Virus record (IMG/VR): IMGVR_UViG_3300032284_001945
Coordinates: 1-51,139 of that record
Origin: a virus
Reading direction: 5' to 3' (one strand)
DNA length: 51,139 nt
Both the position numbers and the translations under genes were made by a program. The notes beneath the pieces were generated by a model. The model was not told the origin of the DNA. It saw nothing but the letters and a program-made list of their open reading frames with translations, and did not search any database. The first letter of the stretch is position 1. Every line of letters starts with the position of its first letter. This document shows, in pieces, positions 1 through 30,530 of this stretch.

Positions 1-85
1 CACTAGTAGCTACTGAAGCTGTAGCTACAGTCATCGACGATGTTTGACTTATCGGAAGATAAGTCGATAACATCGAAGATGTCTG
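1..85 (-). repeat. 85-bp direct repeat, copy A (inside the fibre gene)
   Basis: Identical by eye over 85 bases to 3445-3529 and differing at three positions from 3097-3181. It encodes the SSM..YLPISQTSSMTVATASVATS segment of the fibre. DNA-level identity of this length suggests recent duplication or gene conversion. Confidence 0.85.
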
Positions 86-7473: not shown

Positions 7474-7869
7474 TTAATCTATTTTTTTTAATGTTTCTAA
7501 TTTAGCTTTAGCCGCAACTATACCAATAATTTTATGATCGCCTTTTTTAAGATCGGATTTAATCATTGCTATCTTAATATCCTCAATTTCTTTTTCTGGG
7601 GGCTTATTAGTGATAAATTTTACTTCTACAGAACTATATTCATATTCTACTAGAGATTGGTTTATCTTATCAAGCATCTTATCTCCTCTCAAATCCACTA
7701 TTGTTACAGATTTGATAGCCCTAATTCTTTCCACCGCCTGTACTCTATTTATTTTCTTTTTAAACTTGACAATAAAATAACAAGAATAAGTATGAAAGGT
7801 CTTTTTAATTGATTCTTTCTTACTTCTATCTTGTGATTTTTCCATAAGCAAGTCTATAAATAATATCAT
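7474..7869 (-). CDS. Small conserved protein between neck genes, possible ferredoxin-like fold
   Basis: 131 residues. The ATG at 7869 overlaps the stop of the gp13-like gene in an ATGA arrangement, implying translational coupling. The N-terminus MILFIDLLMEKSQD has the short hydrophobic stretch plus Leu-x-Glu seen in many proteins of this window. The body alternates beta strands and helices (YSCYFIVKFKK, VERIRAIKSVTIVDLR, VEVKFITNK, EDIKIAMIKSDLKKG, KIIGIVAAKAK), compatible with a ferredoxin-like alpha/beta sandwich. Similar small proteins accompany gp13 in cyanophage-type T4 relatives, as far as I recall. Possible chaperone or minor neck component; function unknown. Confidence 0.65.
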   Translation of the reverse strand: MILFIDLLMEKSQDRSKKESIKKTFHTYSCYFIVKFKKKINRVQAVERIRAIKSVTIVDLRGDKMLDKINQSLVEYEYSSVEVKFITNKPPEKEIEDIKIAMIKSDLKKGDHKIIGIVAAKAKLETLKKID

Positions 7870-9049: not shown

Positions 9050-9060
9050 TATAAATATCA
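9050..9060 (-). promoter_or_regulatory. Recurrent AT-rich motif (TGATATTTATA)
   Basis: Full-length copy 17 bases before the gp13-like ATG. It overlaps the stop codon of the upstream homing endonuclease gene, so head-neck genes could be transcribed independently of that gene. Promoter role is inferred. Confidence 0.5.
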
Positions 9061-12109: not shown

Positions 12110-13498
12110 TTACTTTTTAACTTTAATACCAGCTAACTTCTGCCATCTTGCGACCTGCTGATCAGCTTCTGTGATGATATCACCACGCTTAGTGGAACCA
12201 CCAACAGCTTTAGAAGCAAATCCCATAGATTCTTTCAAATTAGTTTTAGTTTTATCGTTCTTAACTCCGATTGCACCATTTAAGGATTCATAAACAATCT
12301 TTGCTTCTTTAACGCTAGCAGCTTTATCGAAAGCAGCGATTACTTTAAGTTTCTGTCCTTCAGACAGATTATGTTTGTGAAGGATCTTATTCAGATACAG
12401 AAGTTTGGCGTTGATAAGATTGGTTTCGTTTACTTTCTTAACAAGTTTTTGCATTTGTTCGGAAAGTTCTTGAACTTTAGTTTCATCAACATCAGCCTGA
12501 GTACGCATATCTTTTGCAGCAGATGCGGTCCGTTTCATTGCAGAGCTAACTTTTTTAAGAAGGGATTTAAACCAAGGATCTTCTTCTTTTTCAGCTTTTT
12601 GAATTGCTTGATCTATAGAGGTAACACCCTTAGCTTTCATATTTTTAAGCGTATCTCTAATAAATCCAATTAAAATAGCAGCACCTGCACCACCTGCTCC
12701 GATAGCACCAGCGATAGCATTAGGATCAACAACAGCTTCATCTTCTTCTTCATCCTCTTCTTCGCCTTCTTTCATTTTTCTTTTTCCGCCAGCAGGATTC
12801 TTTTGGAACCAGTTGACTTCTTCATCTTCGTCTTCTTCGTCTTCTTCTTTCATTTCGGCTAAAAGCGCGTCGATGTTAATTTCTTCGTCAACACCTTCGT
12901 CTTCATCTTCGTCTTCTTCTTTAGAAGTTTCTTTTACTTTTTTGCCCTTTTTATTATACCAGTTGACTTCTTCGTCTTCGTCTTCCTCTTCGGAATAAGC
13001 TTCGTCTTCAGAATCTTCTTCTTCCTCTTCTTCGTCTTCTTCGTCTTCTTCAGCTTTTTTAGCCTCGTCTTCAGAATCTTCTTCGCCGTCTTCTTCCTCT
13101 TCTTCCTCTTCTTCCTCTTCTTCAGACTTTTTAGCTTCATCTTCATCTTCATCTTCATCTTCGTCTTCTTCGCCTTCCATTTCGGCTAAGATAGCATCGA
13201 TATCAAAAGACTCATCTTCGTCTTCGTCTTCTTTGTTATCAGCATCATGATCCGATTTGCCACCCATATTGTCAGCATCCGGTTCTTTATGCATTTTAGC
13301 TTTCTTCTTTTTAGAGATAGCTGCTTCGTCTTCATCTTCGTCTTCTTCTTCTGCTTCTTCTTGGAGTTTAGCAGCAAGAATGGATTTGATCTTGGAATCA
13401 AAAGCTTCGTTTAAACTAGCTTTTGCATTTTCTACGGCTAACTTCTTGATAGCATCAGCATCAGCCATAGCATCTTTTAATAGATTCTTGTTCTTCAT
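12110..13498 (-). CDS. 22: Prohead core scaffold protein, gp22-like, polyacidic
   Basis: 462 residues. It lies between protease and capsid genes, the gp22 position. N-terminus MKNKNLLKDAMADADAIKKL, then a roughly 200-residue centre made almost entirely of Glu/Asp runs broken by a repeated unit ((S/N)(F/I)(D/N)IDA(I/L)LAEM, then EEVNWYNKKG or EEVNWFQKNP). A Gly/Ala hydrophobic stretch follows (IAGAIGAGGAGAAILIGFI, about 265-283), then a helical C-terminus with VDETKVQELSEQMQKLVKKVNETNLINAKLLYLNKIL. It forms the removable core on which the capsid assembles and is degraded by gp21 at Leu-x-Glu sites. It is longer than T4 gp22 (269) because of the acidic expansion. Function from position and composition. 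Confidence 0.85.
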   Translation of the reverse strand: MKNKNLLKDAMADADAIKKLAVENAKASLNEAFDSKIKSILAAKLQEEAEEEDEDEDEAAISKKKKAKMHKEPDADNMGGKSDHDADNKEDEDEDESFDIDAILAEMEGEEDEDEDEDEDEAKKSEEEEEEEEEEEDGEEDSEDEAKKAEEDEEDEEEEEEDSEDEAYSEEEDEDEEVNWYNKKGKKVKETSKEEDEDEDEGVDEEINIDALLAEMKEEDEEDEDEEVNWFQKNPAGGKRKMKEGEEEDEEEDEAVVDPNAIAGAIGAGGAGAAILIGFIRDTLKNMKAKGVTSIDQAIQKAEKEEDPWFKSLLKKVSSAMKRTASAAKDMRTQADVDETKVQELSEQMQKLVKKVNETNLINAKLLYLNKILHKHNLSEGQKLKVIAAFDKAASVKEAKIVYESLNGAIGVKNDKTKTNLKESMGFASKAVGGSTKRGDIITEADQQVARWQKLAGIKVKK

Positions 13499-13671: not shown

Positions 13672-14292
13672 TTAATCGCAGGGACAATAGCCAGCATTAT
13701 TGCAAATAATGTCCCTTATAACATCATCAAGCCTCTTATACGATTCTATTAAATTAGAGGAATGTCCTTCATTGAGAGACAGATTAGCACCTTGAGTGCT
13801 TTCAAAAGAAACTAAATCGAAGGTTAGAAGATTAAAATCATCATTTACTGTAAGAGTACCATCTCTACTTTCATCCACACTACCCATACCCCTAGAACTA
13901 ATACCTACAGGAATGCCTCTTTTTAAAAGACCAGCAGCAATTCTTCCAGCAGGAAATTCGGGACTATCAAGAATTTCAATATCTCCCATAACGTCATCTC
14001 CATCCCAATAAATTTTTTTTATATTGTGAGATACGTTCTTTAAATTGACCACATTATCCTGGCTATGATCTAATTCTCCAAGGCCTCTATTTTGATTTAC
14101 CATGTTCTCAACAAATTTATCCACTTCACGTTTTAAAACTTCTTTAGGATAAATCCTACCATTTCTATTTTTAGCATTACAACGCTGAATGATAATCCCT
14201 TTGAGAATCATAGGTCCTCCGGGATTACCATTTACAGCTTCGTTTAATTGCTTATTATCTAATTTAATCTGGTAGTATTCTGTTAAAAGCAT
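13672..14292 (-). CDS. 21: Prohead core maturation protease, gp21-like
   Basis: 206 residues (T4 gp21 is 212). KGIIIQRCNAKNRNGRIYPKEVL (about 31-53) and LGELDHSQ with candidate catalytic His76 match the phage prohead serine protease family. GIPVGISSRGMGSV (about 126-139) carries the candidate nucleophile Ser (S132 or S133), and the following strands give FDLVSFES. Role: self-activated cleavage of scaffold, capsid and internal proteins at Leu/Ile-x-Glu sites. The N-terminus itself contains QLNEAV, a possible autocleavage site. The CPCD C-terminus is unusual and could bind metal. Sits immediately downstream of the 981-residue internal protein gene. Confidence 0.93.
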   Translation of the reverse strand: MLLTEYYQIKLDNKQLNEAVNGNPGGPMILKGIIIQRCNAKNRNGRIYPKEVLKREVDKFVENMVNQNRGLGELDHSQDNVVNLKNVSHNIKKIYWDGDDVMGDIEILDSPEFPAGRIAAGLLKRGIPVGISSRGMGSVDESRDGTLTVNDDFNLLTFDLVSFESTQGANLSLNEGHSSNLIESYKRLDDVIRDIICNNAGYCPCD

Positions 14293-14299
14293 TGTTAAA

Positions 14300-17245
14300 T
14301 TATTTATCTAAATCGCTCATTTGTTTTATAGCATCTAAAATTTCTTTTGGAATGTCTTTTTCTTTATATTTAGCTACTAAAGCTTGTAAAGCAGCTTTAG
14401 CGGACTTAAACTCCTGGGAGTTGGGATCATTCCACCTTTTAGCATTTTTTACAATATCTTGCTCTTCAGGAGATAATGATTCTCTCATTGTAAGAGCATT
14501 AGGATTGAAAGCTCTGTCTTGAGGAAGACCGGATTTAGTCTGCGCATCACCGCCTAAATCATCTACATTTGAAATTTGATATCCGTCAGGAGCATAAGAA
14601 TTAAAAATTTTTATTCCGTCTTCTCCTAATTCATAGATATATCTAGCCACGTCCCTATTATATTGTTGACCTCTGTCTCTTACGGCAGGATCATCGCTAG
14701 TTTGATACCCCCATTCATATCTTTTCATGAGGTCATCTAACTTCTTTTTTTTTACTTCGGGACCAATATATCCCATATATGCTCCTAAGTCGCTGTAATC
14801 TTCAGATAAAGCTTTTTGGATTCTTTTTCTAATATATTGTTCAAGTACTGTATCCTCGGCGGTTTCTTCTTCACCTTTGTTTTTAAAAACTTTACTAACC
14901 ATTGTAGTTAAAGGAGGAAGGATATCAAGTACTTTATAGCTTTTACCATCTCCTTTGAAAAATACTCCAACAGGAACTCCCCTAGGATCAAGTGAGAAAG
15001 AAAGTTTACCGCCATTAGAAGTAGAAATATTAAATTGCTGCTTCTTTTTATTGAAAGATGCAGATTTAACATCAGTAGAAACTTCTTCTTTAGTATCAGG
15101 ATTTTCAGAACTAGGAATTATAAAATTTACCTTCTTATTAAGAATGAGAGATTTATCTTTACTGGAAAAATCTTCTTTAATATATCCCATACCTTTAGCC
15201 TGTACTCGACTGATAATTCTATAATTTTTTTGTCTATTTTTATCTACTAACTCTTTAGCTCTATTAAGATCATTAAATCCGTATACTTGCTTTTTATTTT
15301 TGTCTTCTACATAAAAATTATAATTAGCTGAAGCATCGTCTTTATTTGTTGTTTTTTTATCTTTTGGAGCATCAGTAGCAGTTTTCTTTTCAGGAGCTTT
15401 AGCACCAACTTCTTTACCTGTAGGATCAGTAGTTTTAACTAAAGTTTTAGAACCGGTTTTACCAATAGGTGTATCTGAAAGTTTTTTTACTTCATATCCT
15501 TTCTTTTTTCTATTTTCTATTTCAGTATCAGTTAAAATAGAATCTACCCACTTATCACCGATTTTAACTTGAACACGATATTGATCACCTTCAGGTTTGC
15601 TAACAGCACTACCTTTAGTTATATTAGCAACCGAGCTTTGAGGCGCTTTTTTACCGGCCCAAACAGTTTTTTTAGTTGTGCTGGGGGCAGGGGAACTTGC
15701 AGCTTTTTCTTTGTCAAAATCGGATTTTAATCCTATAAATTCTACATTAGGATCTGCCTCTAATTTTTTAAATTCATCGTCAGATAATGTACCAGAGCTA
15801 GTATTAGTATCGTTTTTCTTTTTCCAAATATATTCTTTGTCTTTAGTATTTTTTTCTTTATCTTCGGATGCTAATACTACTTTAGTAACTCCATATTGTT
15901 TTTTGAGTTTACTAACTTGCTGATCAGAAAGTTTTACTCCTTTTTTAACTTTTTCTACTCCTCCGGCAAGAGTCATGTAAACATTGTACTCATTTTCTTT
16001 TCTATTAGAAATTTTAGGCTCCTCAGCTTCATTCATTCTTCTCTTTACTTCTTCAAGAAGATCTTTAAAAGCAGGAGAAGGCATAGGTCTCATATCAAGA
16101 CCTAAAACAATATCTTCAATAGGAACTTTTTCTAATACTAATGCTTCTTTAATATCTTCAGGAATATTCTTATATTCTTCAGCACTGAGGTTGGTCCTAT
16201 ATTTAAACAAATCACCACCTCTTTTACCATAGGAATTTTTCCTAGGAGCTTCAAAAATATAAACGTCCTGATAAGATTCGCTTTTATCAGAAGGTACTAT
16301 AGATGCATTAATTTTATGACTAGATTTTAGCATTTTATACTCATGCTCATCTAATTTTCTGTATATAGTAAGTCTTTGTTTCTTTATATCTTTGATACTA
16401 GCAGTATCAAACATAATTTCGTGAATAGCCCCTTCTTTAAAAGCTGATTTTTTAATATCATCAGCTGATGCAGTTCTATGTTTTCCATATTCGCCGTGTC
16501 CGGCAGGTGTTCTATCTGTTCCGACTTTACCTGTTAATCCGTAATTAACAGTTTTTTGTCTGCCGGGACCTTTGCCTGAAGCATAAGGATTTTCCGCTTC
16601 ATCAACAGATTCATTAACAGCTTTCATCTGAGCATAACCGCCCTTCATTTTTTTGACACCGCCAGATTTGCTACGTGCTTTTTCCTTTTTTCCCTGGTTG
16701 TCAGCTACGTTTGGTTTTACTTTTTTTTTATCAGCAGGAACCATTTGATTGTTGGGATCTTTCTTAGGAGAGTTCTTTTTGCTGATATCTATAGGAAGAT
16801 CGGTCCTATTCTTTTTCTTGGCTTGAAATTCGATCATGTCCAGCCTAGTATAATAATTAGGGTCTTCAGCGAGGTGATCTAAAGCAATTTCTTTAGCTTT
16901 ATCAATATCATCTGTATGCTCTAATTCATGTTTCCAACCTTTAGTGAACTCATGATAATTCACTTGATCGGGTGTAAGATTATCTCCTTTACCACCCTTC
17001 AATTTTTGTTTTTTAGCACCTTCATTTAAAGATTTCATAGTGCCAATAAAATCAAAAGATTTAACTTCAGACTCTTTATTATCCCAGATAAATCCTTTAT
17101 TCTTTAAAGTCTTTACAGTATCTTCAAAGGTCATAGTATTGGTAAGGATACCGGAATAATTAGGATCTCTACGAACAGTCCACAAGAAATCGGATTGTGT
17201 CATCTGTTCATTTAATGTCTTTTGATATAAGGTTTGAGTTGTCAT
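14300..17245 (-). CDS. Large putative internal head protein with several possible protease sites
   Basis: 981 residues from the ATG at 17245; a longer frame runs upstream to 17332 but would overlap the preceding gene. Lies between portal and protease, where T4 has the small core genes 67 and 68. N-terminus MTTQTLYQKTLNEQMTQ resembles a capsid-targeting peptide. Residues about 85-130 (WKHELEHTDDIDKAKEIALDHL, then EDPNYYTRLDMIEF) match a small phage domain I recall as DUF5661. The middle is low-complexity, Lys-, Thr- and Pro-rich. Candidate gp21 cut motifs recur (NESVDEAENP, DLLEEV, RMNEAEEP, ALSED). The C-terminal about 130 residues are a compact helical domain (LDDLMKRYEWGYQ). Probably a prohead core or injected protein, possibly cut into several pieces. 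Function inferred. Confidence 0.75.
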   Translation of the reverse strand: MTTQTLYQKTLNEQMTQSDFLWTVRRDPNYSGILTNTMTFEDTVKTLKNKGFIWDNKESEVKSFDFIGTMKSLNEGAKKQKLKGGKGDNLTPDQVNYHEFTKGWKHELEHTDDIDKAKEIALDHLAEDPNYYTRLDMIEFQAKKKNRTDLPIDISKKNSPKKDPNNQMVPADKKKVKPNVADNQGKKEKARSKSGGVKKMKGGYAQMKAVNESVDEAENPYASGKGPGRQKTVNYGLTGKVGTDRTPAGHGEYGKHRTASADDIKKSAFKEGAIHEIMFDTASIKDIKKQRLTIYRKLDEHEYKMLKSSHKINASIVPSDKSESYQDVYIFEAPRKNSYGKRGGDLFKYRTNLSAEEYKNIPEDIKEALVLEKVPIEDIVLGLDMRPMPSPAFKDLLEEVKRRMNEAEEPKISNRKENEYNVYMTLAGGVEKVKKGVKLSDQQVSKLKKQYGVTKVVLASEDKEKNTKDKEYIWKKKNDTNTSSGTLSDDEFKKLEADPNVEFIGLKSDFDKEKAASSPAPSTTKKTVWAGKKAPQSSVANITKGSAVSKPEGDQYRVQVKIGDKWVDSILTDTEIENRKKKGYEVKKLSDTPIGKTGSKTLVKTTDPTGKEVGAKAPEKKTATDAPKDKKTTNKDDASANYNFYVEDKNKKQVYGFNDLNRAKELVDKNRQKNYRIISRVQAKGMGYIKEDFSSKDKSLILNKKVNFIIPSSENPDTKEEVSTDVKSASFNKKKQQFNISTSNGGKLSFSLDPRGVPVGVFFKGDGKSYKVLDILPPLTTMVSKVFKNKGEEETAEDTVLEQYIRKRIQKALSEDYSDLGAYMGYIGPEVKKKKLDDLMKRYEWGYQTSDDPAVRDRGQQYNRDVARYIYELGEDGIKIFNSYAPDGYQISNVDDLGGDAQTKSGLPQDRAFNPNALTMRESLSPEEQDIVKNAKRWNDPNSQEFKSAKAALQALVAKYKEKDIPKEILDAIKQMSDLDK

Positions 17246-21143: not shown

Positions 21144-22745
21144 TTAACGCACCAACCAGCTAATATCCTCATTCTGACCATTAATATTCAGATGGTAGGG
21201 ATTATTTTTTATCGGAGATACATTATCATTATTTACATATGATGTTTGCCTGGATATGTTATTTAACACCGCTCTTTGCATTTCTACACCTTGAGATTTG
21301 TATTGTATGGCACTATCTCTTAGATATAAACCTATTGCATATGGTATAACCAGATCATCATTATATCCAGTTTGAGCCTGAGGTTTGCTATTTTTCCAAA
21401 CAAACGTATTCATTTCATTTACGGTACGTATAGAATTTATTTTTACCGAATGTTCTTTGACATAATTTCTCATAGCCAAGAGAACTTCCGGCCTTGTTTT
21501 GGTAGATGTAGTAAATCCAGCAGTCATTTTTGAAATGTCATAGTCATAATACTTGACCATATATTGAGAGGTATTTAATGTATCCCCCTTAGGAGAATAA
21601 TAGATATTATTATACCCCAATTCTAATACATCAGTCATAGTAGAATGACCTAATCCAGTATTTTCAATGATAAGAAGCGCATTATTGTATTCCAATGCTA
21701 CACCTACAGCAAATTTGGAAAGCATTTTTGTTTCCATATTTCCTTTATATTCAGCTACTTGCGCTCCAGAAAAAATATCTAATACTTGAACTGTGGAATA
21801 ATCGGATCCGTCACCCTTTGCAGTATCTACAATAACCATATAATTCCTAGTGAAATCAGGATATTCCCAAATCCAATAATCTTTCTGGAATCCTCTCATT
21901 TCTATGGGATCCATAACGTTTTGAGAATAATATTCTAGATCTTCTGAGTCAAAATAGGTATCCCCGGAAGATAAAAATGAACAGTCGCATTCTTGCGAGG
22001 CCATTCTTTTACCCAATTCTTTATCTTGATCTTCTCTCCAAGATTTAGTCCTACTAGGATGAACATCCCATCTTAGTTTAATAGGAACAAAGTTATTATC
22101 GCCAACTTCCGCATTGGCCCACATTTGATGGAAAAAGCCGCCTATACCATTAGGGGTGGATAAAATGATAGCTTTACCACCAGTAGCCAGGGTTTGCTGT
22201 GCAGATCCCCAAAGTTCTTCAGCATTATCTATAAAAGCAGCCTCATCTAGAATAAGAACATTTGCAGTATAGCCTCTGGCGCTTTCTGAGGCTCCAGAAG
22301 CGGCTTTAATTTTAGAACCATTTACTAGTATTAGGCTTAATTTGTTGTTCTCTAATGAGGCTACTTTAAGCCAGGAAGGTAATTCGTCGTAAGAGAACCT
22401 AACCTTATCAACAATATTTCTGGCTTTTTCTTGAGTAGGAGCCAAAGCGAGGATCGATTGATCTTTTTTAAAGATCATCAACCACAATGCGTAAGCGGCA
22501 GAAAGAGTAGTAATACCCAACTGCCTTGATTTTAATATAATAGTACGATCGTGTTTGCTTAAAAGGAAAAGAAGTTTTTCTTGAAACAAATACGGATTAA
22601 ATAACATTCTACCTTCTGAAGTCTGTATATATACATACTTTTTTAGAAAGTAAATTGGATCTTTAGCGCATTTTACATATTCTTCTCTTATAATTTCTTT
22701 GAGCGATTTCTGATTTTCTGACATAGAATCATTTATATTGATCAT
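21144..22745 (-). CDS. 17: Terminase large subunit, gp17-like
   Basis: 533 residues. ATPase domain: Walker A-type SRQLGITT (73-80), Walker B VLILDEAAF with D167/E168, and coupling motif STPNG (186-190). Nuclease domain: YMVIVDTAKGDGSDYS with acidic D307 and D315, and LLIIENTG with E351, as in the RNase H-like fold of gp17. Role: ATP-driven DNA packaging through the portal and headful cutting. The first 16 bases overlap the metallopeptidase gene; an ATG at 22724 (MSENQ) is an alternative start that avoids the overlap. T4 gp17 is longer (610). Confidence 0.96.
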   Translation of the reverse strand: MININDSMSENQKSLKEIIREEYVKCAKDPIYFLKKYVYIQTSEGRMLFNPYLFQEKLLFLLSKHDRTIILKSRQLGITTLSAAYALWLMIFKKDQSILALAPTQEKARNIVDKVRFSYDELPSWLKVASLENNKLSLILVNGSKIKAASGASESARGYTANVLILDEAAFIDNAEELWGSAQQTLATGGKAIILSTPNGIGGFFHQMWANAEVGDNNFVPIKLRWDVHPSRTKSWREDQDKELGKRMASQECDCSFLSSGDTYFDSEDLEYYSQNVMDPIEMRGFQKDYWIWEYPDFTRNYMVIVDTAKGDGSDYSTVQVLDIFSGAQVAEYKGNMETKMLSKFAVGVALEYNNALLIIENTGLGHSTMTDVLELGYNNIYYSPKGDTLNTSQYMVKYYDYDISKMTAGFTTSTKTRPEVLLAMRNYVKEHSVKINSIRTVNEMNTFVWKNSKPQAQTGYNDDLVIPYAIGLYLRDSAIQYKSQGVEMQRAVLNNISRQTSYVNNDNVSPIKNNPYHLNINGQNEDISWLVR

Positions 22746-23160
22746 CCCATGTCCTAAAAAGCATGTTTCCTCTCAAATATGCATCCGCTTCCATCTTAGC
22801 GAGATGTTCATCGTGTTCGGCATACCTGGGATCTGATAACCCGTGATGATGTTCTTTGGAGAACATACCAGTTATATTCTGATTATGATGAATCATTTCG
22901 TGAGCAAAGCTTCTCAGAACATCTTTAATGTGCCTACCGGCAGTATATAATACAATAAGTTTTCTTTCTGGGTCGTAAAAAGCCGTTTTTCCAAAAGGAT
23001 CTTTTTCATATCTAGCATCCGAAGAAAAAATTAAATTAGGATAAGGTTTAAGTTCAACCTTTCCAGACATATATTCCGACAAATCCATTATATAAGGGAT
23101 AATATTTTGTTCAGATACCCTTACGTCTTTATGTACATTTTGGTATTTAGATAATTCCAT
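22729..23160 (-). CDS. Small zinc metallopeptidase-like protein (HExxH)
   Basis: 143 residues. FAHEMIHHNQN has the zincin signature HExxH (H87, E88, H91), and a downstream EADAY (E124) could give the third ligand, as in gluzincin-like families. A His-rich loop (EHHHGLSD) lies between. No signal peptide. Starts in TAATG overlap with the upstream gene and overlaps the terminase gene. Similar short HExxH proteins occur in other T4-like phages, as I recall, without known substrate. It could act in virion maturation or on host proteins; the motif supports a protease, the substrate is unknown. Confidence 0.75.
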   Translation of the reverse strand: MELSKYQNVHKDVRVSEQNIIPYIMDLSEYMSGKVELKPYPNLIFSSDARYEKDPFGKTAFYDPERKLIVLYTAGRHIKDVLRSFAHEMIHHNQNITGMFSKEHHHGLSDPRYAEHDEHLAKMEADAYLRGNMLFRTWDDQYK

Positions 23161-23702
23161 TATTTTGTAGGATTTTCTTCGGGTGTTTCTTCAGGATTCT
23201 TTTCTTCGGGTTCTTCTGCCGGTTTTTCTTCTGGGCTTTCTTCCTCAGGAGTTTCCGGTTCGGGTTCCTTAGAAATGGGGCCGTTTTTCAAAAGATTATT
23301 TATATAATCTAAACATTGTTCATATTCAGATTTATTAGCTATATTATATTTTTTACCACTAACAATTATTGTAAAAGAATCGCTAGGTTCAAAATCTTCC
23401 GGGTATTCTGTTTCTAATGGAGTAGGATCATACTTCATATCGAAAAAATTACCATTCGGTATCATAATTCTAAAAGTAGTAGGCTTATAAGAAATACAAC
23501 GAATATCAGAGACTACTTCTCTGATTTGTTTTTCTGCCTCTTTATTATATCGATCTTGAGTAGTCAGTAGTTTAGTTAAAACTGAAGTGATTTTTTTAGA
23601 TTTACCTAAAATTTTATCTAAATCAGACTCATTGTCTATTTTAGAGATCTCTTCAGCTTCAGCCAATTTATATCTAAAAACTTGAAAATAATTGGGTTTC
23701 AT
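23160..23702 (-). CDS. Putative internal head protein with acidic Pro/Glu tail
   Basis: 180 residues. N-terminus MKPNYFQVFRYKLAEAEEIS contains a hydrophobic helix plus LAE|A, matching the capsid-targeting/cleavage pattern of neighbours. Middle part has beta strands (FRIMIPNGNFFDMKYD, SFTIIVSGKKYNIANKSEY). The last about 45 residues are Pro/Glu repeats (EPETPEEESPEEKPAEEP), a disordered acidic tail. Coupled to the next gene by TAATG. Might be a core protein or packaged protein; not recognised as a named family. Confidence 0.6.
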   Translation of the reverse strand: MKPNYFQVFRYKLAEAEEISKIDNESDLDKILGKSKKITSVLTKLLTTQDRYNKEAEKQIREVVSDIRCISYKPTTFRIMIPNGNFFDMKYDPTPLETEYPEDFEPSDSFTIIVSGKKYNIANKSEYEQCLDYINNLLKNGPISKEPEPETPEEESPEEKPAEEPEEKNPEETPEENPTK

Positions 23703-23703
23703 A

Positions 23704-23713
23704 TATATAAATA
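23704..23713 (-). promoter_or_regulatory. Recurrent AT-rich motif, 1 base before a start codon
   Basis: TATATTTATA lies 1 base upstream of the ATG at 23702. A -10 element here would start transcription inside the gene, so this copy is evidence against a pure promoter explanation. Confidence 0.3.
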
Positions 23714-23719
23714 TAGCTT

Positions 23720-23971
23720 TTAATCTTTCTTAGGTTCCCACCAATCACTACAATATTGTAAGGGATGATAAGGAATAGATTTTACCCCACTCCATTTTTC
23801 ATAGTAGTCATTACCACAATATCCTTCTTTATCTTTTGTGCCTTCATGCCAATATTTGCAATTAGCACAACATGCACCGCCTTTTGGAACTTTCATACCG
23901 GCTTTATGATTTTCAGGCAATACATATTCTTTACCACCGTATTCTTCTAATAAATCTATAAACTTAATCAT
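23720..23971 (-). CDS. Small four-cysteine protein, possible iron-sulfur or zinc binder
   Basis: 83 residues. N-terminus MIKFIDLLEEYGG matches the amphipathic tag of neighbours. The body is VPKGGACCANCKYW, then GYCGNDYYEKW and YCSDWWE: CxxC followed by two single Cys with aromatic residues, reminiscent of high-potential iron-sulfur or rubredoxin-like knuckles. Such small VPKGG..CANC..Y proteins recur in T4-like phages, as I recall. Its ATG overlaps the stop of the GAF-like gene. If it is cut after LLE or LEE, the mature protein would be a 70-odd residue metal-binding domain inside the capsid. Function unknown. Confidence 0.6.
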   Translation of the reverse strand: MIKFIDLLEEYGGKEYVLPENHKAGMKVPKGGACCANCKYWHEGTKDKEGYCGNDYYEKWSGVKSIPYHPLQYCSDWWEPKKD

Positions 23972-24585
23972 GATGCTAAATAGTTATTTATTACGCCTCC
24001 TATTGTAGAAAGCTCTAAAGCTATATCCGTTATTTTTTCCTCAGACAATTCTGTTTTTTTATTAACATAGTCAATACCTACTATACCAATAAACGCGCTT
24101 TTTATATTGTACAAAGGAAAAAGATAAGTGCTTTTAACATGAGACCCGCTTACTATAGAAGTAAAACCTTCGTGTTTTTTATCTTCTAAATCAGTATCAG
24201 AAATAGCTATTATTTCACCTTTATGTAAATAATTTATGGTATTAGTAAAAAGGCTAACTGGGATGTTTTGAAATTGGTTTTGACAAGGGATTACTCCAGT
24301 ATTTAAAACTTCATAGACTATACTGAATTTTTGTATTGATTTGCCGGTAGGATAAAAATGTCCCCCGTTATGAAATTGAATGAGCCAAACACGATCAGCG
24401 TTATTATCGACTTTAATTTCTTCTAATTTTTCTGTTATCGTTTTACTTGTAGCTATAGATTCAGATAAAGTATCTTTTTTCTTTTTTTCGCTGAACAATT
24501 TAATATAGTGTACAGCTATTGGACCTATTACAGCGGTCATTAATGAACTTATTACGGCGACTATTAAATTGCTTTCGTTATGCAT
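23968..24585 (-). CDS. Membrane-anchored GAF-like domain protein
   Basis: 205 residues. Residues about 7-29 (LIVAVISSLMTAVIGPIAVHYI) form one hydrophobic transmembrane-type segment, followed by a charged linker (KLFSEKKKKDTL). The rest looks like a GAF-type sensor fold: ADRVWLIQFHNGGHFYPTGK, FPLYNIKSAFIGIVGIDYVNKK and a long C-terminal helix. I recall similar RV(W/Y)L(I/F)QFHNGGHF proteins in other phages without function. It lacks the tag seen in flanking genes, so it is less likely to be packaged and may act in the host membrane (signal sensing, lysis timing or superinfection exclusion). All roles are inference. Confidence 0.6.
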   Translation of the reverse strand: MHNESNLIVAVISSLMTAVIGPIAVHYIKLFSEKKKKDTLSESIATSKTITEKLEEIKVDNNADRVWLIQFHNGGHFYPTGKSIQKFSIVYEVLNTGVIPCQNQFQNIPVSLFTNTINYLHKGEIIAISDTDLEDKKHEGFTSIVSGSHVKSTYLFPLYNIKSAFIGIVGIDYVNKKTELSEEKITDIALELSTIGGVINNYLAS

Positions 24586-24589
24586 TTTA

Positions 24590-25144
24590 CTACTTTCGTT
24601 TTTTAACTTTTTTCCATAATTTAGCGTCGGCTTTTCTAGCTCCTCCCTTTCCCGTTATAAAACTGTTTAATCTACCCATAGCCCATTGTTGTTGCGCTAC
24701 ACCTGGGCGGTGACCGCTTTTCCAGGCACGTGCGCCTTTAGAATATACCTGTTTTAATATGCTTTTAGATATGCCAGAAGCCTTAGCTTTCTTAGATAAG
24801 GCTTTATCTACCGCGCTTTCTTCTAATGGCGTACTCCCAGGTTTAGATTTTGCATCAAAAATTTTTATAGCTGCATTTACTATATTTTCACCAAATAGAT
24901 TTTTAGAATCTTTAAAATCGTTTTTCATGTTTTCATCATCTCTGATTTGCTCTAACGCAGAGATTACTGAATCGTTATCTAAAGAACTAGTATGTACTAA
25001 ATTTCTATATTGATCGCCGAATAAACCTTTAATATCATCAACATTATTTATTAAAACTTCTCTAAAATTTTCTATTTCAGCCGGTGAATATTCTAATTGC
25101 CAATCAGATTCAGCCAGTTGTTTAATTATCTTTAAAAACTTCAT
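24590..25144 (-). CDS. Tagged basic protein with HRPG module (DUF5824-like)
   Basis: 184 residues. Tag: MKFLKIIKQLAES, giving LAE|S as a candidate gp21 site. Helical middle part. C-terminal about 70 residues form a compact basic module: SKKAKASGISKSILKQVYSKG, then ARAWKSGHRPGVAQQQWAMG, RLNSFITGKGGARKADAKLW. I associate this with DUF5824, found in phages and giant viruses. Charge of the end (KLWKKVKKRK) suggests nucleic acid contact. The start overlaps the preceding stop in ATGA. Candidate packaged DNA-binding protein. Confidence 0.65.
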   Translation of the reverse strand: MKFLKIIKQLAESDWQLEYSPAEIENFREVLINNVDDIKGLFGDQYRNLVHTSSLDNDSVISALEQIRDDENMKNDFKDSKNLFGENIVNAAIKIFDAKSKPGSTPLEESAVDKALSKKAKASGISKSILKQVYSKGARAWKSGHRPGVAQQQWAMGRLNSFITGKGGARKADAKLWKKVKKRK

Positions 25145-25797
25145 TTTTCTTTATTTTTGAACATTTTTTCATAAGCAACGGTAGCTTTAGATTTTTTAGT
25201 CTTATAAGCTTTCTTTTTGGATTTATCAGCATAATCAGCTTTCCATTTACCATAGGCTGAAGGATCATTAGCTTTTAGTTTTTTAACTCTTTCGATCTCA
25301 TCCTTCATATCCTTTTTGTTCTTAGTAAGATATTTACCAGGAACTTTTCTACCGGATTTGGTTCTTTCTGATTTTACCTCTTTTAAAAGATCTAGAAAAC
25401 TAAAATTCTCTTCTTGAGTGTCTTTTCTATAAGGATTCATAAATGTAAAAACATCATTTTTAGACCTATGTCCAAATAAAACATGATATTTTTTACCTTT
25501 AATATTTACAGTTTGATTAGTTTTTTGCACAGATTTTTTTATAGCAGTCATTATAGTAGAAGCCAGAGTTTCTTCTCCGAAATCAAAAGTTCTATAAAAG
25601 GCATTTTTAAATTTGTTAGCAACGCCTCTGACATTTCTATTTAAGTCTATCCATACTAGATCAGGTATATATAATTCATTTCCACCTGTAGACAAAAAAG
25701 CACCCATTTTTTTAAATAGGTCTATTTGCTCATTTGTTAAAGTGAAAGAATTAGGAGCTTTTTGGTCTTCTATTAATAAATCTAAAAATTTTATCAT
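25141..25797 (-). CDS. Tagged two-part protein with basic C-terminal module (DUF5872-like)
   Basis: 218 residues. Tag: MIKFLDLLIEDQ. Residues about 15-120 are an unrecognised alpha/beta domain (FKKMGAFLSTGGNELYIPDLVWI, GKKYHVLFGHRSKNDVFTFM). A second tag-like stretch NFSFLDLLKEVKSE occurs near 131-144. It is followed by a Lys-rich module (KVPGKYLTKNKKDMKDEIE, then SAYGKWKADY and YKTKKSKATVAYEKMF) that I associate with DUF5872 of phages and large DNA viruses. The internal LLKEV could be a second processing site releasing the basic module. Function unknown. Confidence 0.62.
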   Translation of the reverse strand: MIKFLDLLIEDQKAPNSFTLTNEQIDLFKKMGAFLSTGGNELYIPDLVWIDLNRNVRGVANKFKNAFYRTFDFGEETLASTIMTAIKKSVQKTNQTVNIKGKKYHVLFGHRSKNDVFTFMNPYRKDTQEENFSFLDLLKEVKSERTKSGRKVPGKYLTKNKKDMKDEIERVKKLKANDPSAYGKWKADYADKSKKKAYKTKKSKATVAYEKMFKNKEK

Positions 25798-25806
25798 ATT
25801 TTTATT

Positions 25807-26244
25807 TTATTCGCCTAATTCATGAAAACCTTTAGATGCCTGATCTATATAGTTTTCAGCATTGGTAATATGGTCCTGGATCCATCCGGGGATATCTCTT
25901 TCCTGGTTTCCTATTTTTTGAGAAAGCTCAGCCGCAGACTGCATGATGGATTTAAGACTTTTTTGAGCCATGGAGACTTCGTGATCCATTCCATCATTTT
26001 CTTTAATTCTTTTAATGTTCTTCCACATTGCTGCGGCTGCTACGCGCTTACCGGCTTCTTTGGATCCGTATTGTTTAGCGGCTTTTGCGGCTACTTTTTC
26101 AAAACCTTTTCCTTTTTTACCGATGTCTTTACCAGCTTTAGCTTTTTTAGCTACATCGGATTTCTGTTTTTTAGTGAGACCAGCAGAGGGTTTTTTCTTT
26201 TTTGCTTCAAGCAAAGAGTCTTTAAAGATCTTTATGATTTTCAT
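25807..26244 (-). CDS. Tagged basic protein, Lys/Ala-rich module plus helical tail
   Basis: 145 residues. Tag: MKIIKIFKDSLLEAKKK with LLE|A. Residues about 19-75 are a Lys/Ala/Gly-rich, histone-tail-like module (GLTKKQKSDVAKKAKAGKDI, GKGFEKVAAKAAKQYGSKEA, AAAAMWKN) that I have seen as a short conserved phage element. Residues 85-145 form a helical domain (DHEVSMAQKSLKSIMQSAAEL, RDIPGWIQDHITNAENYIDQA) that also recurs in phage structural proteins. A candidate capsid-internal DNA-compacting protein. Confidence 0.65.
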   Translation of the reverse strand: MKIIKIFKDSLLEAKKKKPSAGLTKKQKSDVAKKAKAGKDIGKKGKGFEKVAAKAAKQYGSKEAGKRVAAAAMWKNIKRIKENDGMDHEVSMAQKSLKSIMQSAAELSQKIGNQERDIPGWIQDHITNAENYIDQASKGFHELGE

Positions 26245-26261
26245 TTTTATTGTTTTATACG

Positions 26262-26270
26262 TATAAATAT
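26262..26270 (-). promoter_or_regulatory. Recurrent AT-rich motif (ATATTTATA)
   Basis: Copy 17 bases before the ATG at 26244, followed by an A-rich leader (AACAATAAAA) without Shine-Dalgarno. Confidence 0.45.
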
Positions 26271-26846
26271 TTACTTTTCCAGGCTATTTTTCAATTCTTG
26301 TAGCCCTTCTTTCCATTCTTTTACTATTTTGTCTTTATCTGCGCCACCATCCCATTCTTCTATGTCTCCTTGTTCGGTCACATATCCTTCTTTTTCAGCA
26401 TTATAGAACTCTTCTATAAACTGTTCGGCCTCTTCTATGTGAGTTATTATATTTTTTGTTATAATATTTCTAGCGTATTCTTCATATTTCCCTTCCAATT
26501 TCAATTTAGACTCCATAACAATCACACAATCAAAACATTTTTTGTGCAAAGGATACATTTTTTTATCTAATCTATTTTTCATTGGTTTATTACACTCTGG
26601 GCAAAGAAGAGGCATTCTTATGGCTTTTTTAACCTCAGTAAGCTTTGTTATTGTTTGCTTAATTCCGTCTTTTATAGTCCAAGTTTTGCCATTCTCTTCC
26701 CAAATGTCTCCTTCTTGATAATCGATCTCTTTTTTAATGTAACCTACTTGCTGGCCTGTAGATTCGCCATATTTTTTGGTTACAATATTTCTCAAACGAT
26801 TAACGTCTCTTTCTCTAAATTCTTTTTTTAATAGGGTTTCGCTCAT
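26271..26846 (-). CDS. Conserved phage protein with zinc ribbon
   Basis: 191 residues. The N-terminal part has REFDVNRLRNIVTKKYGES-like helices and GDIWEENGKTWTIKDGIKQ (about 46-64). The zinc ribbon is CPECNKPMKNRLDKKMYPLH with a second CFDC knuckle (about 82-107). The C-terminal third is helical and acidic. I recall homologues in large T4-like phages, of unknown function. The ATG overlaps the stop of the cupin-like gene. The ribbon suggests nucleic acid or protein binding, for example in transcription, but this is inference. It has no capsid tag. Confidence 0.65.
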   Translation of the reverse strand: MSETLLKKEFRERDVNRLRNIVTKKYGESTGQQVGYIKKEIDYQEGDIWEENGKTWTIKDGIKQTITKLTEVKKAIRMPLLCPECNKPMKNRLDKKMYPLHKKCFDCVIVMESKLKLEGKYEEYARNIITKNIITHIEEAEQFIEEFYNAEKEGYVTEQGDIEEWDGGADKDKIVKEWKEGLQELKNSLEK

Positions 26847-27100
26847 AACTTTTTTATTTTAATCTTTAAATCTCCTGTACCTTTTATGGCTCTATGCCAT
26901 TGCCCTTTTGGTACAAATATTTGACCTTCTATTTTAATTGGCAATTCGTTTTCTCTTTGAAATAACCAATCTGTAGTTTCTAATGGCTCTACTATTCGAT
27001 CTTCTTGATCTCTATGCCATCTCATTTCTCCAGATTCTACTTCTGTTTTAAAAATCCTTTCAAACCATCCATCATTAAATTTTTCAGTATATGGTAACAT
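26843..27100 (-). CDS. Small cupin-like protein
   Basis: 85 residues from the ATG at 27100, which follows the upstream stop by one base; in-frame ATGs at 27124 and 27154 would overlap that gene. Contains MRWHRDQEDRIVEPLETTDW, then FQRENELPIKI and FVPKGQWHRAIKG. This His/Glu pattern (WHRD..., PKGxWHR) and beta-rich order suggest a single cupin barrel with a possible metal site. Similar short WHRD/HR.IKG proteins occur in T4-like phages, to my recollection, with no known function. The DLKIKIKKL ending is a final beta strand. Confidence 0.6.
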   Translation of the reverse strand: MLPYTEKFNDGWFERIFKTEVESGEMRWHRDQEDRIVEPLETTDWLFQRENELPIKIEGQIFVPKGQWHRAIKGTGDLKIKIKKL

Positions 27101-27101
27101 G

Positions 27102-29423
27102 TTATTTAGAAACTTTATTATCATGCATATATTTGAAAAGCTTAAGCGCGTCACGAAGGAAATTCAATAAGTTAGATTTAAATATATATTTAGACGTAGA
27201 ATCTTTTTGCTGTTCTTTAGTCGCTTCTAAAATATCCGCAATTCTTTTTGTAAAAGAACTTTCGCCATCTTTTCCAGAGTAAACTGACGAATAAACATCA
27301 TCAATTAAAGATTTTAAATATTTAATATCTTCTGTATCAAAGAAATTTGTAAAATCTACATCCATTATGTAGTTGTCTTCAAATTTATTTAACAACTTAT
27401 TGAACCTATCGTCCTTTGTTCTTTTCTCTTTTTTAAGTTTCTTTTTTACATTTTCTATAAGTTTCAACAGATCTTCAAAAAAAGATAAGTTTACTTTTGA
27501 ACCCGCAGAGGTAAGTTCTTTTTTAACTTCTATGTTTTTTATAAAAGCCTCAGATAAACCGGATTTTTTTAATTCTTTTGCTTTTTTAATTCCTTTTAAT
27601 AAAGCTTTTTTCATTATGAAAGGATTTTTAGATTTTACTCCGTCAGTCCTTTCTATTTGTATCATACCTTCTTCTTTATCAATATTCTTTACTTTTATTT
27701 GAAAAGGTTTTCCTGACCTATTAATTAAGGTATATACAGCTCCTTTTTTAATTACAGGTTCTTCTGTAGAAATATCTTTAGGAGTTTCTTTAGGAACTTC
27801 TTTTGTTTTCTTTTTTGAAATTTTTTCTTCAGGAGATGTTTTTTCTTTTTTAGGAGAAGCGGATAATTTAGATTTATTATCGGAGATATATTTAAAAAGT
27901 TTTTTTAATGACGCATACAAATCATCTTGTTCTGATGGAACGATTTCTTTTTCTTTTTCTTTTTTAATTTTAGTTGTATCAACAGGCGCTTCCTTATTTA
28001 CAGGACCGGGATTTATTTCAGAAGGGGATATTTTAACATTCGTATCAACTTCACCCTTAGTTTTAATAACAGTACCTCCGGGTATATTTCTCAGAGATTG
28101 ATATAAAGAGTTTAAAGTAGCAGCTCTTGAAGTTCTGAGACCTTTCATTCTCATCGCTTTTACTGTAGCTCCTGCTACCAGAGCCGCAATACCTACACCA
28201 TGTAAAATACTAGCAGCACCTGCCACTTTTGCTGCCGCAGCTGCTCCTCCCACTTTAGTAGTTGTAGTTATACCTTTTTTAATTAAAATACGACTAACAA
28301 GAGAAGCTGCTTTAGATATACCAAAAAGATTTTGACCGTGTTTCATGCTACCGTAAGTCACATTTTTCTCAGTAAAAATTTGACCTACGGGTTTAGAAGC
28401 ATTTTCTCCTCCTACTACTTGTTGTAATTGTTTTATTTGTTCATCCGGTGTTCCTCCCCCATTACCATCAAACATATGTTTTACATTATCGGCTCCATAT
28501 TTACCAATAAATTTTTGAACATCTGCACCGGTTTTCATTTCATGTCCATCTATCTTACCCATCCAATGAAGCATACCTCTAGCATCAGCATGACCTCCTG
28601 AAATATTTTTAAAAATATCTGCGGTTGTGGTAGTTTCAGCATGACTAAATAAATCTTTTATCCAGTTTAAAAACCATTCTGATTTAAACATCCAGGATAA
28701 AGTATTTAATCCGACACTACCGGCAAGAAGATAAGTAGATAATCTATCTTTACTAAGGGTCTTTATTTTAGAACTACCAAAATCGGCGTTATCACCGTCA
28801 CCGGATCTTGCTGCTCTATCTGCTTTAAATTTTGCTCTAATATCAGAAGCTTGGTCTTCTAATAATCCAAAAGCTTCATCTATTTTTTTATATTCTTCTT
28901 CAGTTATATTATCGTTTTCATCTACAGTAGAATAAACGGCTTTTAATTTAGCATCTAGTATGTGTTTAACGTATGCTCTTAAATCATTAATTACACCATT
29001 CGCAGAATCAATAGTAATTTTTTGTTTTTTAGCAGCATCTACTATCGAATCATAACAAGCAGCAATGTCTAATACAATAGATAAAAAATCAGATCCTTTT
29101 AAATTATTAGGGAATTCAGGATTTCTTTCTTGAATGCTATTATCTAATTCTTTTATAAACTCATTACCTTGTTTATCTATAAGTTTTTTTATTTCTTCTT
29201 CAGCAGCTTTAAATTCTTTTCCTTTGCCCCAAAATTTACCATTGACTTTATATCTTCCCGTCATTAGTGACGTGGTATATTTTATTTTTTCCCAAGTACT
29301 AGCTTCCTCGGGTTTATTTTTTTCTTCCCATTCTCCCTCATTTAAATTCTTAATTTCTTCATTAAGAATTTTTTTAATAAGAATTTCTATGTCTTTGTTA
29401 GATTTTGATTTCATATTTTTCAT
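27102..29423 (-). CDS. Large putative internal virion protein with hydrophobic segments
   Basis: 773 residues. The N-terminal 35 residues hold two Leu-Asn-Glu motifs (KILNEEI, NLNEGEW) in an amphipathic helix. Hydrophobic segments lie at about 229-260 (STYLLAGSVGLNTLSWMF) and about 391-430 (GGAAAAAKVAGAASILHGVG, then IAALVAGATVKAM), the second typical of membrane-inserting glycine/alanine helices. Then a Lys/Glu/Pro-rich linker (about 480-570), an SH3-like strand region (GAVYTLINRSGKPFQIKV) and a helical C-terminus. Combination of a cleavable tag and membrane-type segments suggests a packaged protein that could help DNA entry, but a colicin-like or scaffold role is not excluded. Confidence 0.6.
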   Translation of the reverse strand: MKNMKSKSNKDIEILIKKILNEEIKNLNEGEWEEKNKPEEASTWEKIKYTTSLMTGRYKVNGKFWGKGKEFKAAEEEIKKLIDKQGNEFIKELDNSIQERNPEFPNNLKGSDFLSIVLDIAACYDSIVDAAKKQKITIDSANGVINDLRAYVKHILDAKLKAVYSTVDENDNITEEEYKKIDEAFGLLEDQASDIRAKFKADRAARSGDGDNADFGSSKIKTLSKDRLSTYLLAGSVGLNTLSWMFKSEWFLNWIKDLFSHAETTTTADIFKNISGGHADARGMLHWMGKIDGHEMKTGADVQKFIGKYGADNVKHMFDGNGGGTPDEQIKQLQQVVGGENASKPVGQIFTEKNVTYGSMKHGQNLFGISKAASLVSRILIKKGITTTTKVGGAAAAAKVAGAASILHGVGIAALVAGATVKAMRMKGLRTSRAATLNSLYQSLRNIPGGTVIKTKGEVDTNVKISPSEINPGPVNKEAPVDTTKIKKEKEKEIVPSEQDDLYASLKKLFKYISDNKSKLSASPKKEKTSPEEKISKKKTKEVPKETPKDISTEEPVIKKGAVYTLINRSGKPFQIKVKNIDKEEGMIQIERTDGVKSKNPFIMKKALLKGIKKAKELKKSGLSEAFIKNIEVKKELTSAGSKVNLSFFEDLLKLIENVKKKLKKEKRTKDDRFNKLLNKFEDNYIMDVDFTNFFDTEDIKYLKSLIDDVYSSVYSGKDGESSFTKRIADILEATKEQQKDSTSKYIFKSNLLNFLRDALKLFKYMHDNKVSK

Positions 29424-29432
29424 TTTAAAATA

Positions 29433-29930
29433 TTAAGCTGCTGTCGGTTTTTTCTTTGATTTTTTGCTGAGTTTTACAGGAATATTTAATTGTTTTTTTC
29501 TTCTGATAGTTAATGTGCCTTCTGCGCCATCAACATCTAAAAAATATTTGTCTTTTGGAATATTAATATCTAGAAATTTTTTAACTAAATTTAATCTTTT
29601 AGTATTTATAGGGCTTATAAAAACTTCTGTCCAATCTTTATTAGTATTTAAAAAATCTAAAGTAATATCTGTGACAGTAGCATTAACTTTAAAAGCTTTT
29701 CCTTCTCCGGTCATCTCATATCCTATTTTATGAGAAGGCCTATAAATTCTTTCATATTTAGTTTCATCTTCAGTGAAAGGAATAAATTTTACTATATAAT
29801 CTATTCCTTCTTCACCTGTATTAAAAGAATATCGTGTACCCAAAGCAGAAGGTTCTTTCTTCCAAGGGAACACATTTCCTTTTTTAACATCAAATTCTAA
29901 TTCTAATAAGAGATTTATAAAGTTTGTCAT
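29433..29930 (-). CDS. Tagged small protein, putative internal head protein
   Basis: 165 residues. N-terminus MTNFINLLLELEFDVKKGN carries the hydrophobic tag with LLE. Body is mixed alpha/beta (YIVKFIPFTEDETKYERIY, TVTDITLDFLNTNKDW) and ends in a basic tail (KLSKKSKKKPTAA). No family recognised. Stop and start are 9 bases from the large hydrophobic protein gene. Function unknown; the tag plus basic tail place it with the other candidate packaged proteins. Confidence 0.6.
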   Translation of the reverse strand: MTNFINLLLELEFDVKKGNVFPWKKEPSALGTRYSFNTGEEGIDYIVKFIPFTEDETKYERIYRPSHKIGYEMTGEGKAFKVNATVTDITLDFLNTNKDWTEVFISPINTKRLNLVKKFLDINIPKDKYFLDVDGAEGTLTIRRKKQLNIPVKLSKKSKKKPTAA

Positions 29931-29933
29931 ATA

Positions 29934-30530
29934 TTACCAATATCCGGTGAAATTAGATTTGATGCCTAATAATTTTGCATATCTTGGGAGTCGGCACGAC
30001 CAGTAATTAGCCATAGTTTTATCTTTAGCCTGGGCGCATTTATGACGAGCCGCAAAAGATTTTCTGGCTTTAGGATCATTGATTTTAGCTTTTAATCCTG
30101 AGGTATCTCCAAAAGATACTTTCTTTATTCCTCCTCCGGGCTTGCGGACAAAAACATAGAATTTCTTACTGCCGCCGCGATGTGGTTTGTTGAGAGCGGG
30201 CTGTTTTTTAGCAGCTTTTTTAGCTTCCAAAAGTTGCTCATAGCTCATAGGAAAATCTAAAGGAACTTTTATACCTTCATATATTCCAAATTCACCCAGA
30301 TCGGTGTTTATAAGAATACTTTTTTCTACCTCATTGAGTTCTAATTCTCCTTTTTTATGAAGCTCTCTAGCTTCTATAAAGAGTTCGAAATACTTTGCAG
30401 AAGAAGGTCGATAAATGTTTTCTGTTAAAGGCAGATTGTTTTCTATATGATGTAACATACCTTCAGACAAATTGTAACTATCACAATTACACCCCTTGAC
30501 TAAATCCGAAAAAATCGTTAAAAATTTCAT
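29934..30530 (-). CDS. Tagged protein with conserved basic Cys-containing C-terminal module
   Basis: 198 residues. N-terminus MKFLTIFSDLVKGCNCDSYN, then NLSEGM, a Leu-x-Glu site near residue 23. The C-terminal about 75 residues are the conserved part: KKFYVFVRKPGGGIKKVSFG, NDPKARKSFAARHKCAQAKD, ANYWSCRLPRYAKLLG. I recall this as a short module at the ends of phage structural or head proteins, including cyanophages. Basic and probably DNA- or metal-binding. Another member of the tagged series. Confidence 0.68.
   Translation of the reverse strand: MKFLTIFSDLVKGCNCDSYNLSEGMLHHIENNLPLTENIYRPSSAKYFELFIEARELHKKGELELNEVEKSILINTDLGEFGIYEGIKVPLDFPMSYEQLLEAKKAAKKQPALNKPHRGGSKKFYVFVRKPGGGIKKVSFGDTSGLKAKINDPKARKSFAARHKCAQAKDKTMANYWSCRLPRYAKLLGIKSNFTGYW

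Follow-up and report, generated by a model that had tools for sequence, protein, structure and literature searches.

Short N-terminal tags on a gene cluster of a T4-like phage suggest a system for loading internal proteins into the head

IMG/VR virus record IMGVR_UViG_3300032284_001945, analyzed here over its 51,139 bases (hereafter the window), is part of the genome of a T4-like phage and carries on its minus strand a T4-type head module. Beside the terminase gene lies an interval, 22729-30530, in which an initial annotation noticed a recurring N-terminal pattern: a short hydrophobic stretch followed by Leu-x-Glu, likened to the capsid-targeting sequence (CTS) of T4 internal proteins (IPs) and seen also on a gene at 7474 and on a 981-residue protein. 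That annotation took about eight such proteins for a packaged kit of injected effectors or DNA-compaction proteins. Does this phage load a set of proteins into its head as T4 does? Our analysis indicates that it likely does, and that by analogy with T4 the tagged genes would form an internal-protein system in which products are targeted to the prohead core, cleaved after [LI]xE, packaged and injected.

In the CTS of T4 IPIII, residues 4 and 7 serve targeting and residues 8 and 10 serve processing (PMC9026906). Two definitions were derived for scoring N-termini: a strict motif, Phi-x-x-Phi-[LIV]-x-E with the glutamate at residue 8-24, and the exact IPIII spacing, with hydrophobic residues at 4, 7 and 8 and Glu at 10. 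The N-termini quoted in the initial annotation were all found on the minus strand, and its start for the 981-residue protein (rather than one giving 1010 residues) is correct, with homologues beginning at the same Met. An [LI]xE site within residues 4-24 was present in 8 of the 12 interval genes, compared with 7 of 32 other non-head genes (Fisher p=0.008) and with 4.25 expected when residues 2-26 were shuffled with composition preserved (p=0.021). The strict motif was found in 4 of the 12, versus 0.65 expected from shuffles (p=0.004). Taken alone, the window gives the tag excess moderate significance. Four window proteins (23720, 25141, 29433 and 7474) have the exact IPIII spacing, and the remaining tagged ones carry longer, looser or shifted-spacing versions: 27102-29423 contains the strict motif, while 23160, 24590 and 25807 have [LI]xE but K, Q or S at P4.

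The excess was also analyzed among relatives of the window terminase (at 21144, used as the query) collected from IMG/VR together with two isolates; their genes were called with a simple script, so that some starts are approximate. Upstream of the terminase, 142 of 576 complete genes carry the strict motif, versus 19.5 expected and a maximum of 30 in 200 shuffles. Because some relatives are near-identical, counts of this kind are not fully independent, and the safer figure is the 120 unrelated body clusters bearing the motif (first 30 residues and structural markers removed), obtained with a coverage-filtered clustering that replaced a single-linkage version in which acidic proteins had been lumped together. 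The motif is concentrated at residues 10-19 (16 per 1000) compared with positions past residue 30 (about 1-3 per 1000), its rate in internal windows is 2.7%, and the exact IPIII spacing occurs in 46 of 1530 proteins of the pooled set versus 2.9 in shuffles. Three isolates come closest to the window by capsid protein: Flavobacterium phage immuto (53% identity), Microcystis phage Mel-JY01 and Rhodothermus phage RM378. In the equivalent cluster of immuto, the strict motif is on 11 of 24 genes, compared with 8 of 150 early genes (p=1.3e-6); of these eight, about four show recognisable tag types. As controls, the search recovered IPII and IPIII from T4, plus gp2, 61.1 and some chance hits, and gave 2 of 56 for crAss001. 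Within T4, both gp61.1 (L099:18966-19130, MKTFKEFIKED) and gp2 (L100:26061-26885, MAIFQIINES) carry the strict motif; gp61.1, labelled hypothetical in its record, resembles an IP signal.

Conservation follows the tags gene by gene. The same pattern of tagged and untagged cargo-region genes was observed in five relatives (L007, L008, L015, L016 and L021), and the [LI]xE site is almost always kept in homologues of 23160, 23720, 25807 and 29934, nearly all homologues of 23160 and 25807 retaining LxE. All 6 homologues of 23720 have a tag-like N-terminus (5 with the strict motif), close homologues of 25807 retain [IM]FK[ED][AS][LI][LI]EA, and tagged homologues of 29433 are found in L007 and immuto. 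A distant homologue of 7474 (L032:20367) starts MIKLKDILNE. In 29934, where the hydrophobic stretch MKFLTIFSDLVKG is not directly followed by LxE, the conserved site is NLSE/G at residues 21-23, with S22-E23 invariant in 12 homologues. AlphaFold2 (AF2) models of 23160 and 29934 have a short N-terminal helix and then a low-confidence stretch near the predicted site: in 23160, a helix at 5-17, low confidence at 13-25 and a folded domain at 28-139 (mean predicted local distance difference test score, pLDDT, 69); in 29934, residues 9-18 below pLDDT 50 (mean 72). The interval is not a tagged battery throughout, since 22729, 23968, 26271 and 26843 are untagged, as are their homologues; 30549 is likewise untagged throughout close relatives. 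The untagged 22729-23160 (minus strand) contains HEMIHH and weakly matches a metallopeptidase domain (DUF6782, 3.9e-4, below cut-off), and in immuto its domain is embedded in a 907-residue protein annotated NMN adenylyltransferase. The well-conserved 23968-24585 (minus strand), in the cargo cluster, matches phrog_38864, which has no assigned function; its N-terminal hydrophobic segment is probably a membrane segment.

The tag is also modular. Gene 25141-25797 has a second, internal tag that immediately precedes a module found as a separate tagged protein in L008:6896-7168, and NFSFLDLLKE/V is a predicted internal cut site. Because a tag is present at this gene-fusion joint, the sequence comparison shows it to be a discrete module. 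The body of 24590-25144 terminates in DUF5824 (2.3e-14), a module that directly follows a tag in L008:7165; the L016 homologue of 27102 has about 120 residues inserted between both LxE sites; and L015 carries the 29433 body as a fusion, C-terminal to a CTP_transf-like domain and with a degenerate tag region. Beside 25807 and 29934, differing tagged open reading frames (ORFs) occur in the window, L007, L008, L016 and L021. These two places are best explained as accessory sites at which tagged ORFs are gained and lost, as at the T4 ip loci.

Table 1. Coordinates of tags, cargo region and head-module genes in the window. A slash marks the position of the predicted cut.
Feature	Position	Strand	Evidence or remarks
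Cargo region	22729..30530	-	between terminase and CTP_transf-like gene/primase
Tag of gene 23160-23702	23658..23702	-	MKPNYFQVFRYKLAE/A; K-[LV]-x-E retained by most of 9 homologues
Tag of gene 23720-23971	23942..23971	-	MIKFIDLLEE; exact T4 IPIII spacing
Tag of gene 24590-25144	25109..25144	-	MKFLKIIKQLAE/S; LxE at 10-12
Tag of gene 25141-25797	25768..25797	-	MIKFLDLLIE/D; exact T4 IPIII spacing
Internal second tag of gene 25141-25797	25378..25407	-	residues 131-140, NFSFLDLLKE/V
Tag of gene 25807-26244	26206..26244	-	MKIIKIFKDSLLE/A; Lys-rich body
N-terminal region of gene 27102-29423	29337..29423	-	two LxE sites: ILNE at 22, NLNE/G at 29
Tag of gene 29433-29930	29901..29930	-	MTNFINLLLE; exact T4 IPIII spacing
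Propeptide candidate of gene 29934-30530	30462..30530	-	predicted cut NLSE/G, residue 23
Tag of gene 7474-7869	7840..7869	-	MILFIDLLME; exact T4 spacing; outside cluster, neck region
Portal	18399	-	phrog_213
981-residue prohead-operon protein	14300..17245	-	DUF5661; true start 17245, N-terminus MTTQTLYQKTLNE/Q
S77 (gp21-type) prohead protease	13672..14292	-	PF03420 2.5e-28, over cut-off; phrog_207 head maturation protease 1.2e-46
Scaffold/core protein, acidic (putative)	12110..13498	-	position and acidity; C-terminus IITEADQQVARWQKLAGIKVKK, RWQKLAGI at 12125-12148
Major capsid protein	10444	-	phrog_138
Neck protein, gp13-like	7866	-	phrog_211

The head module of the window supplies the other components that such a system would use (Table 1). 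Immuto and the window share the order primase - small genes - terminase - portal - protease - scaffold - capsid, and Mel-JY01 has the same gene order as the window from the CTP_transf-like gene onward; extrapolating from immuto, we would guess that the host of the window phage belongs to the Bacteroidota. The S77 protease is presumed to be the enzyme that processes the tags. The place of the 981-residue protein is taken by two ORFs in L008, L014 and others. The scaffold-like protein at 12110 matches nothing in Pfam or PHROGs; it contains internal IDAILAE and IDALLAE sites, and its C-terminal R-x-QKLAG is common to the scaffold-like proteins of 19 relatives.

The motif, its conservation and modularity, the genomic location of the tagged genes and the presence of a protease gene are established by these data. 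By analogy with T4, we infer core binding, cleavage, packaging, injection and function of the tagged proteins as follows. The tag, a removable amphipathic helix at the N-terminus some 10-15 residues long (Phi-x-x-Phi-[LI]-x-E), would bind the growing prohead core or the capsid interior, and core-bound tags would bring mutually unrelated proteins inside the head. Once assembly is complete, these proteins would be released by the S77 protease that the phage itself encodes, through cuts after [LI]-x-E. DNA would then be packaged around the freed proteins, which would remain in the head, and most of them would probably enter the host along with the DNA. Fused cargo may keep an internal tag as a second cut site, as in 25141.

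Other N-termini recur on differing proteins of the relatives, namely MKKSEL..IKE, ENFDLKKFLVENKL and KQILSEEFxRMQKLAGIITE. A scan for RMQKLAGIIxE returned 76 stretches containing 91 occurrences of RMQKLAG[ILV], 84 of them within 25 residues of a possible start. The QKLAGI-type tag was found on 69 distinct proteins; 64 of them have bodies of sufficient length for comparison, which fall into 43 families. In DNA the peptide is spelled in 56 different ways, so that it is the protein sequence that is conserved. In the terminase-relative set, the only non-N-terminal occurrences are at 20 scaffold-like C-termini (e.g. ...ILSEVSEQVSRWQKLAGIIK), which carry R-x-QKLAGI, and the upstream [IL]xE is common to tag and scaffold C-terminus. 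Immuto has both the tagged proteins and the matching scaffold C-terminus, and it is the only one of 50,697 phage records in which the 22-residue tag was found. The S77 protease is present in 14 of 20 longer QKLAGI contigs, including all six of at least 74 kb. In the window, QKLAG was found at the scaffold C-terminus only and on none of the cargo. One relative has five consecutive genes (L173:4618-7226) that open with a QKLAGI-type tag and differ in their bodies, a tandem array. Judging from these similarities, the KQILSEEFxRMQKLAGIITE tag probably works by scaffold mimicry: it would pose as the scaffold C-terminus to load cargo. Engineered P22 capsids take up cargo that has been fused to scaffold (PMC9962691). 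The peptides 'QKLAGI' and 'LAGIITE' were not mentioned in the literature searched. A broader proposal, which we put forward tentatively and would give slightly less than even odds, is that in this phage group several interchangeable N-terminal tags, one of them a natural copy of the scaffold C-terminal peptide flanked by protease sites, load a wide range of proteins as an injected counter-defence kit; the kit would include the products of tagged genes in tandem, and fused cargo that is set free at its internal tags.

What the tagged proteins might do was sought in their bodies. Sequence searches of Pfam, PHROGs and PDB revealed next to nothing about the function of the window bodies; those identified were DUF5824 in 24590, a phrog_7595 module (101-180) in 29934 and DUF5661 in the 981-residue protein. 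The AF2 models of 23160 and 29934, of moderate quality, had no Foldseek match at E<=0.001, and no window member matched IPI-III or Alt in Pfam or PHROGs. IP1-3 share no homology beyond the leader (PMC12373910), and body homology is hence not strictly required. In the closest relative, L007, the tagged ORF at 4-996 is a probable ADP-ribosyltransferase (ART) by sequence (ART-PolyVal 9e-7, 30.2 bits versus a cut-off of 31.2); no ART was detected in the window itself. T4 packages Alt, an ART, and ARTs are often head-packaged in myoviruses (PMC9503650). Mel-JY01 has a tagged CTP_transf-like protein, and the tagged L002:24857 has a weak NT5C nucleotidase match. T4 Ip1-3 inhibit type IV restriction enzymes that act on modified DNA (PMC12373910). 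Because immuto encodes annotated 7-deazaguanine DNA modification genes, a counter-restriction role like that of T4 Ip1-3 is plausible for some cargo.

Several points weigh against a T4-like internal-protein system. The strict motif is present in just half of the listed window genes (T4 IPI also fails it). No strong P1' preference was seen above that of chance internal matches. A short CTS-type motif is not diagnostic by itself, because scanning IMG/VR for the nine-residue pattern IKFID[LIMF][LF]xE returned 15 loci that were mostly chance (short or unrelated frames), with one clear N-terminal match and an S77 protease in 2 of 14 records tested. The grounds for taking 12110 as the scaffold are position, acidity and C-terminal similarity only. 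Effector delivery gains no support from function, because the cargo bodies are almost throughout without identifiable function. No virion proteomics of immuto was found in the literature searched. Finally, some tagged proteins resemble core components.

In an alternative reading, the tagged proteins are building blocks of the prohead core (accessory scaffold, gp67/gp68-like) that are cut and largely cleared instead of being delivered. The 981-residue protein, the protease and the capsid protein have similar N-terminal LxE sites. For the capsid protein, said to open with the same pattern as the cargo, SLLES is conserved in most relatives, but it is cleavage-site-like only and not a targeting helix. 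Gene 23160-23702 adjoins the terminase and is conserved; its product is acidic, has an acidic, Pro/Glu-rich C-terminal tail and could be either cargo or a core protein. Like the 981-residue protein and the protease, it may belong to the prohead core instead of being injected. As an account of the tagged proteins in general, however, we consider core building blocks unlikely: close relatives differ in the tagged ORFs at the same positions, the bodies number about 120 unrelated kinds, and the probable ADP-ribosyltransferase (just under the Pfam cut-off) and the weak NT5C match are poor scaffold candidates. It is very improbable that the helix serves another job, such as membrane or portal contact or stability, with LxE incidental. 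AT-rich genomes commonly have short hydrophobic N-termini and the strict motif is not in all genes, but the enrichment holds over composition-preserving shuffles and same-genome early genes, L-x-E is conserved position-specifically, and the internal copy sits exactly at the module joint. Chance or AT-rich composition, to which the modest window-only p values (0.004-0.02) might point, is contradicted by the pooled relatives and ruled out by the shuffles, internal windows, early genes and crAss001, and can be set aside. The T4-type internal-protein system is left as the likely reading, favoured by the protease, the IPIII spacing, the unrelated bodies, the gene-by-gene conservation and the tag at a fusion joint, with the amendment that not every interval gene belongs to it; the interpretation given in the initial annotation is thereby supported in part.

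Other features were observed near the head genes. The portal ORFs of two close relatives (L007:7722-10823 and L015:12379-15624) reach 1033 and 1081 residues through insertions of about 400-450 residues, each at a different site, whose junctions look intein-like (e.g. GKCIHPDTKI); the portal of the window has no such interruption. Two similar window ORFs (minus strand; YIH/YRH...FYVGIG), at 9058-9651 near the capsid gene and at 20263-21123 between portal and terminase, are, by eye, possibly GIY-YIG-type mobile endonucleases, and L015 has one ORF of this type at 11614. A long fibre-like protein with many SASYALTASY-type repeats (2-4738, minus strand) extends past the window edge.

With a sequence-readable tag, many unannotated genes of phages beyond the T-evens, whose injected proteins were found to block host restriction enzymes, could be ranked as coding for packaged and probably injected proteins. 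Immuto is a cultivated phage with all the tag types, so these predictions are directly testable. If true, a natural scaffold-mimicking tag would be a route of loading protein cargo into a virus head unreported in the literature searched.

The closest known systems are T4 IPI-IPIII and Alt, whose CTS is cleaved by gp21 and which likewise have a short N-terminal peptide with hydrophobic residues at 4 and 7 and [LI]xE at 8-10, an S77 protease, unrelated bodies and accessory loci that vary between relatives (PMC9026906, PMC12373910). Unlike the T4 IPs, the genes described here belong to another phage clade, with many tagged genes clustered between primase and terminase; their bodies have no counterpart among known IPs in Pfam or PHROGs; and there are several tag types in relatives and an internal tag in fused cargo. 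The tagged ART-PolyVal-like L007:4-996 and the DUF5661 in the 981-residue protein recall head-packaged ARTs and polyvalent proteins (PMC9503650), although the packaging signal proposed here is a short cleavable tag and not a MuF or portal fusion. In the giant phages SPN3US and phiKZ, the prohead protease also removes N-terminal propeptides after x-x-E, including 20- and 24-residue ones, but their motif is A-x-E and the majority of the propeptides span 111-254 residues (PMC10052503). Engineered P22 scaffold-cargo fusions resemble the QKLAGI-type tag in that a scaffold sequence brings cargo into the capsid (PMC9962691); they are man-made and uncleaved by a phage protease, whereas the tag of the relatives occurs naturally, at the N-terminus, between [IL]xE sites. 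The kind of system is thus already known from the T4 CTS, and what is new is the clade, the number of tagged genes, the variety of tags and the scaffold-like tag.

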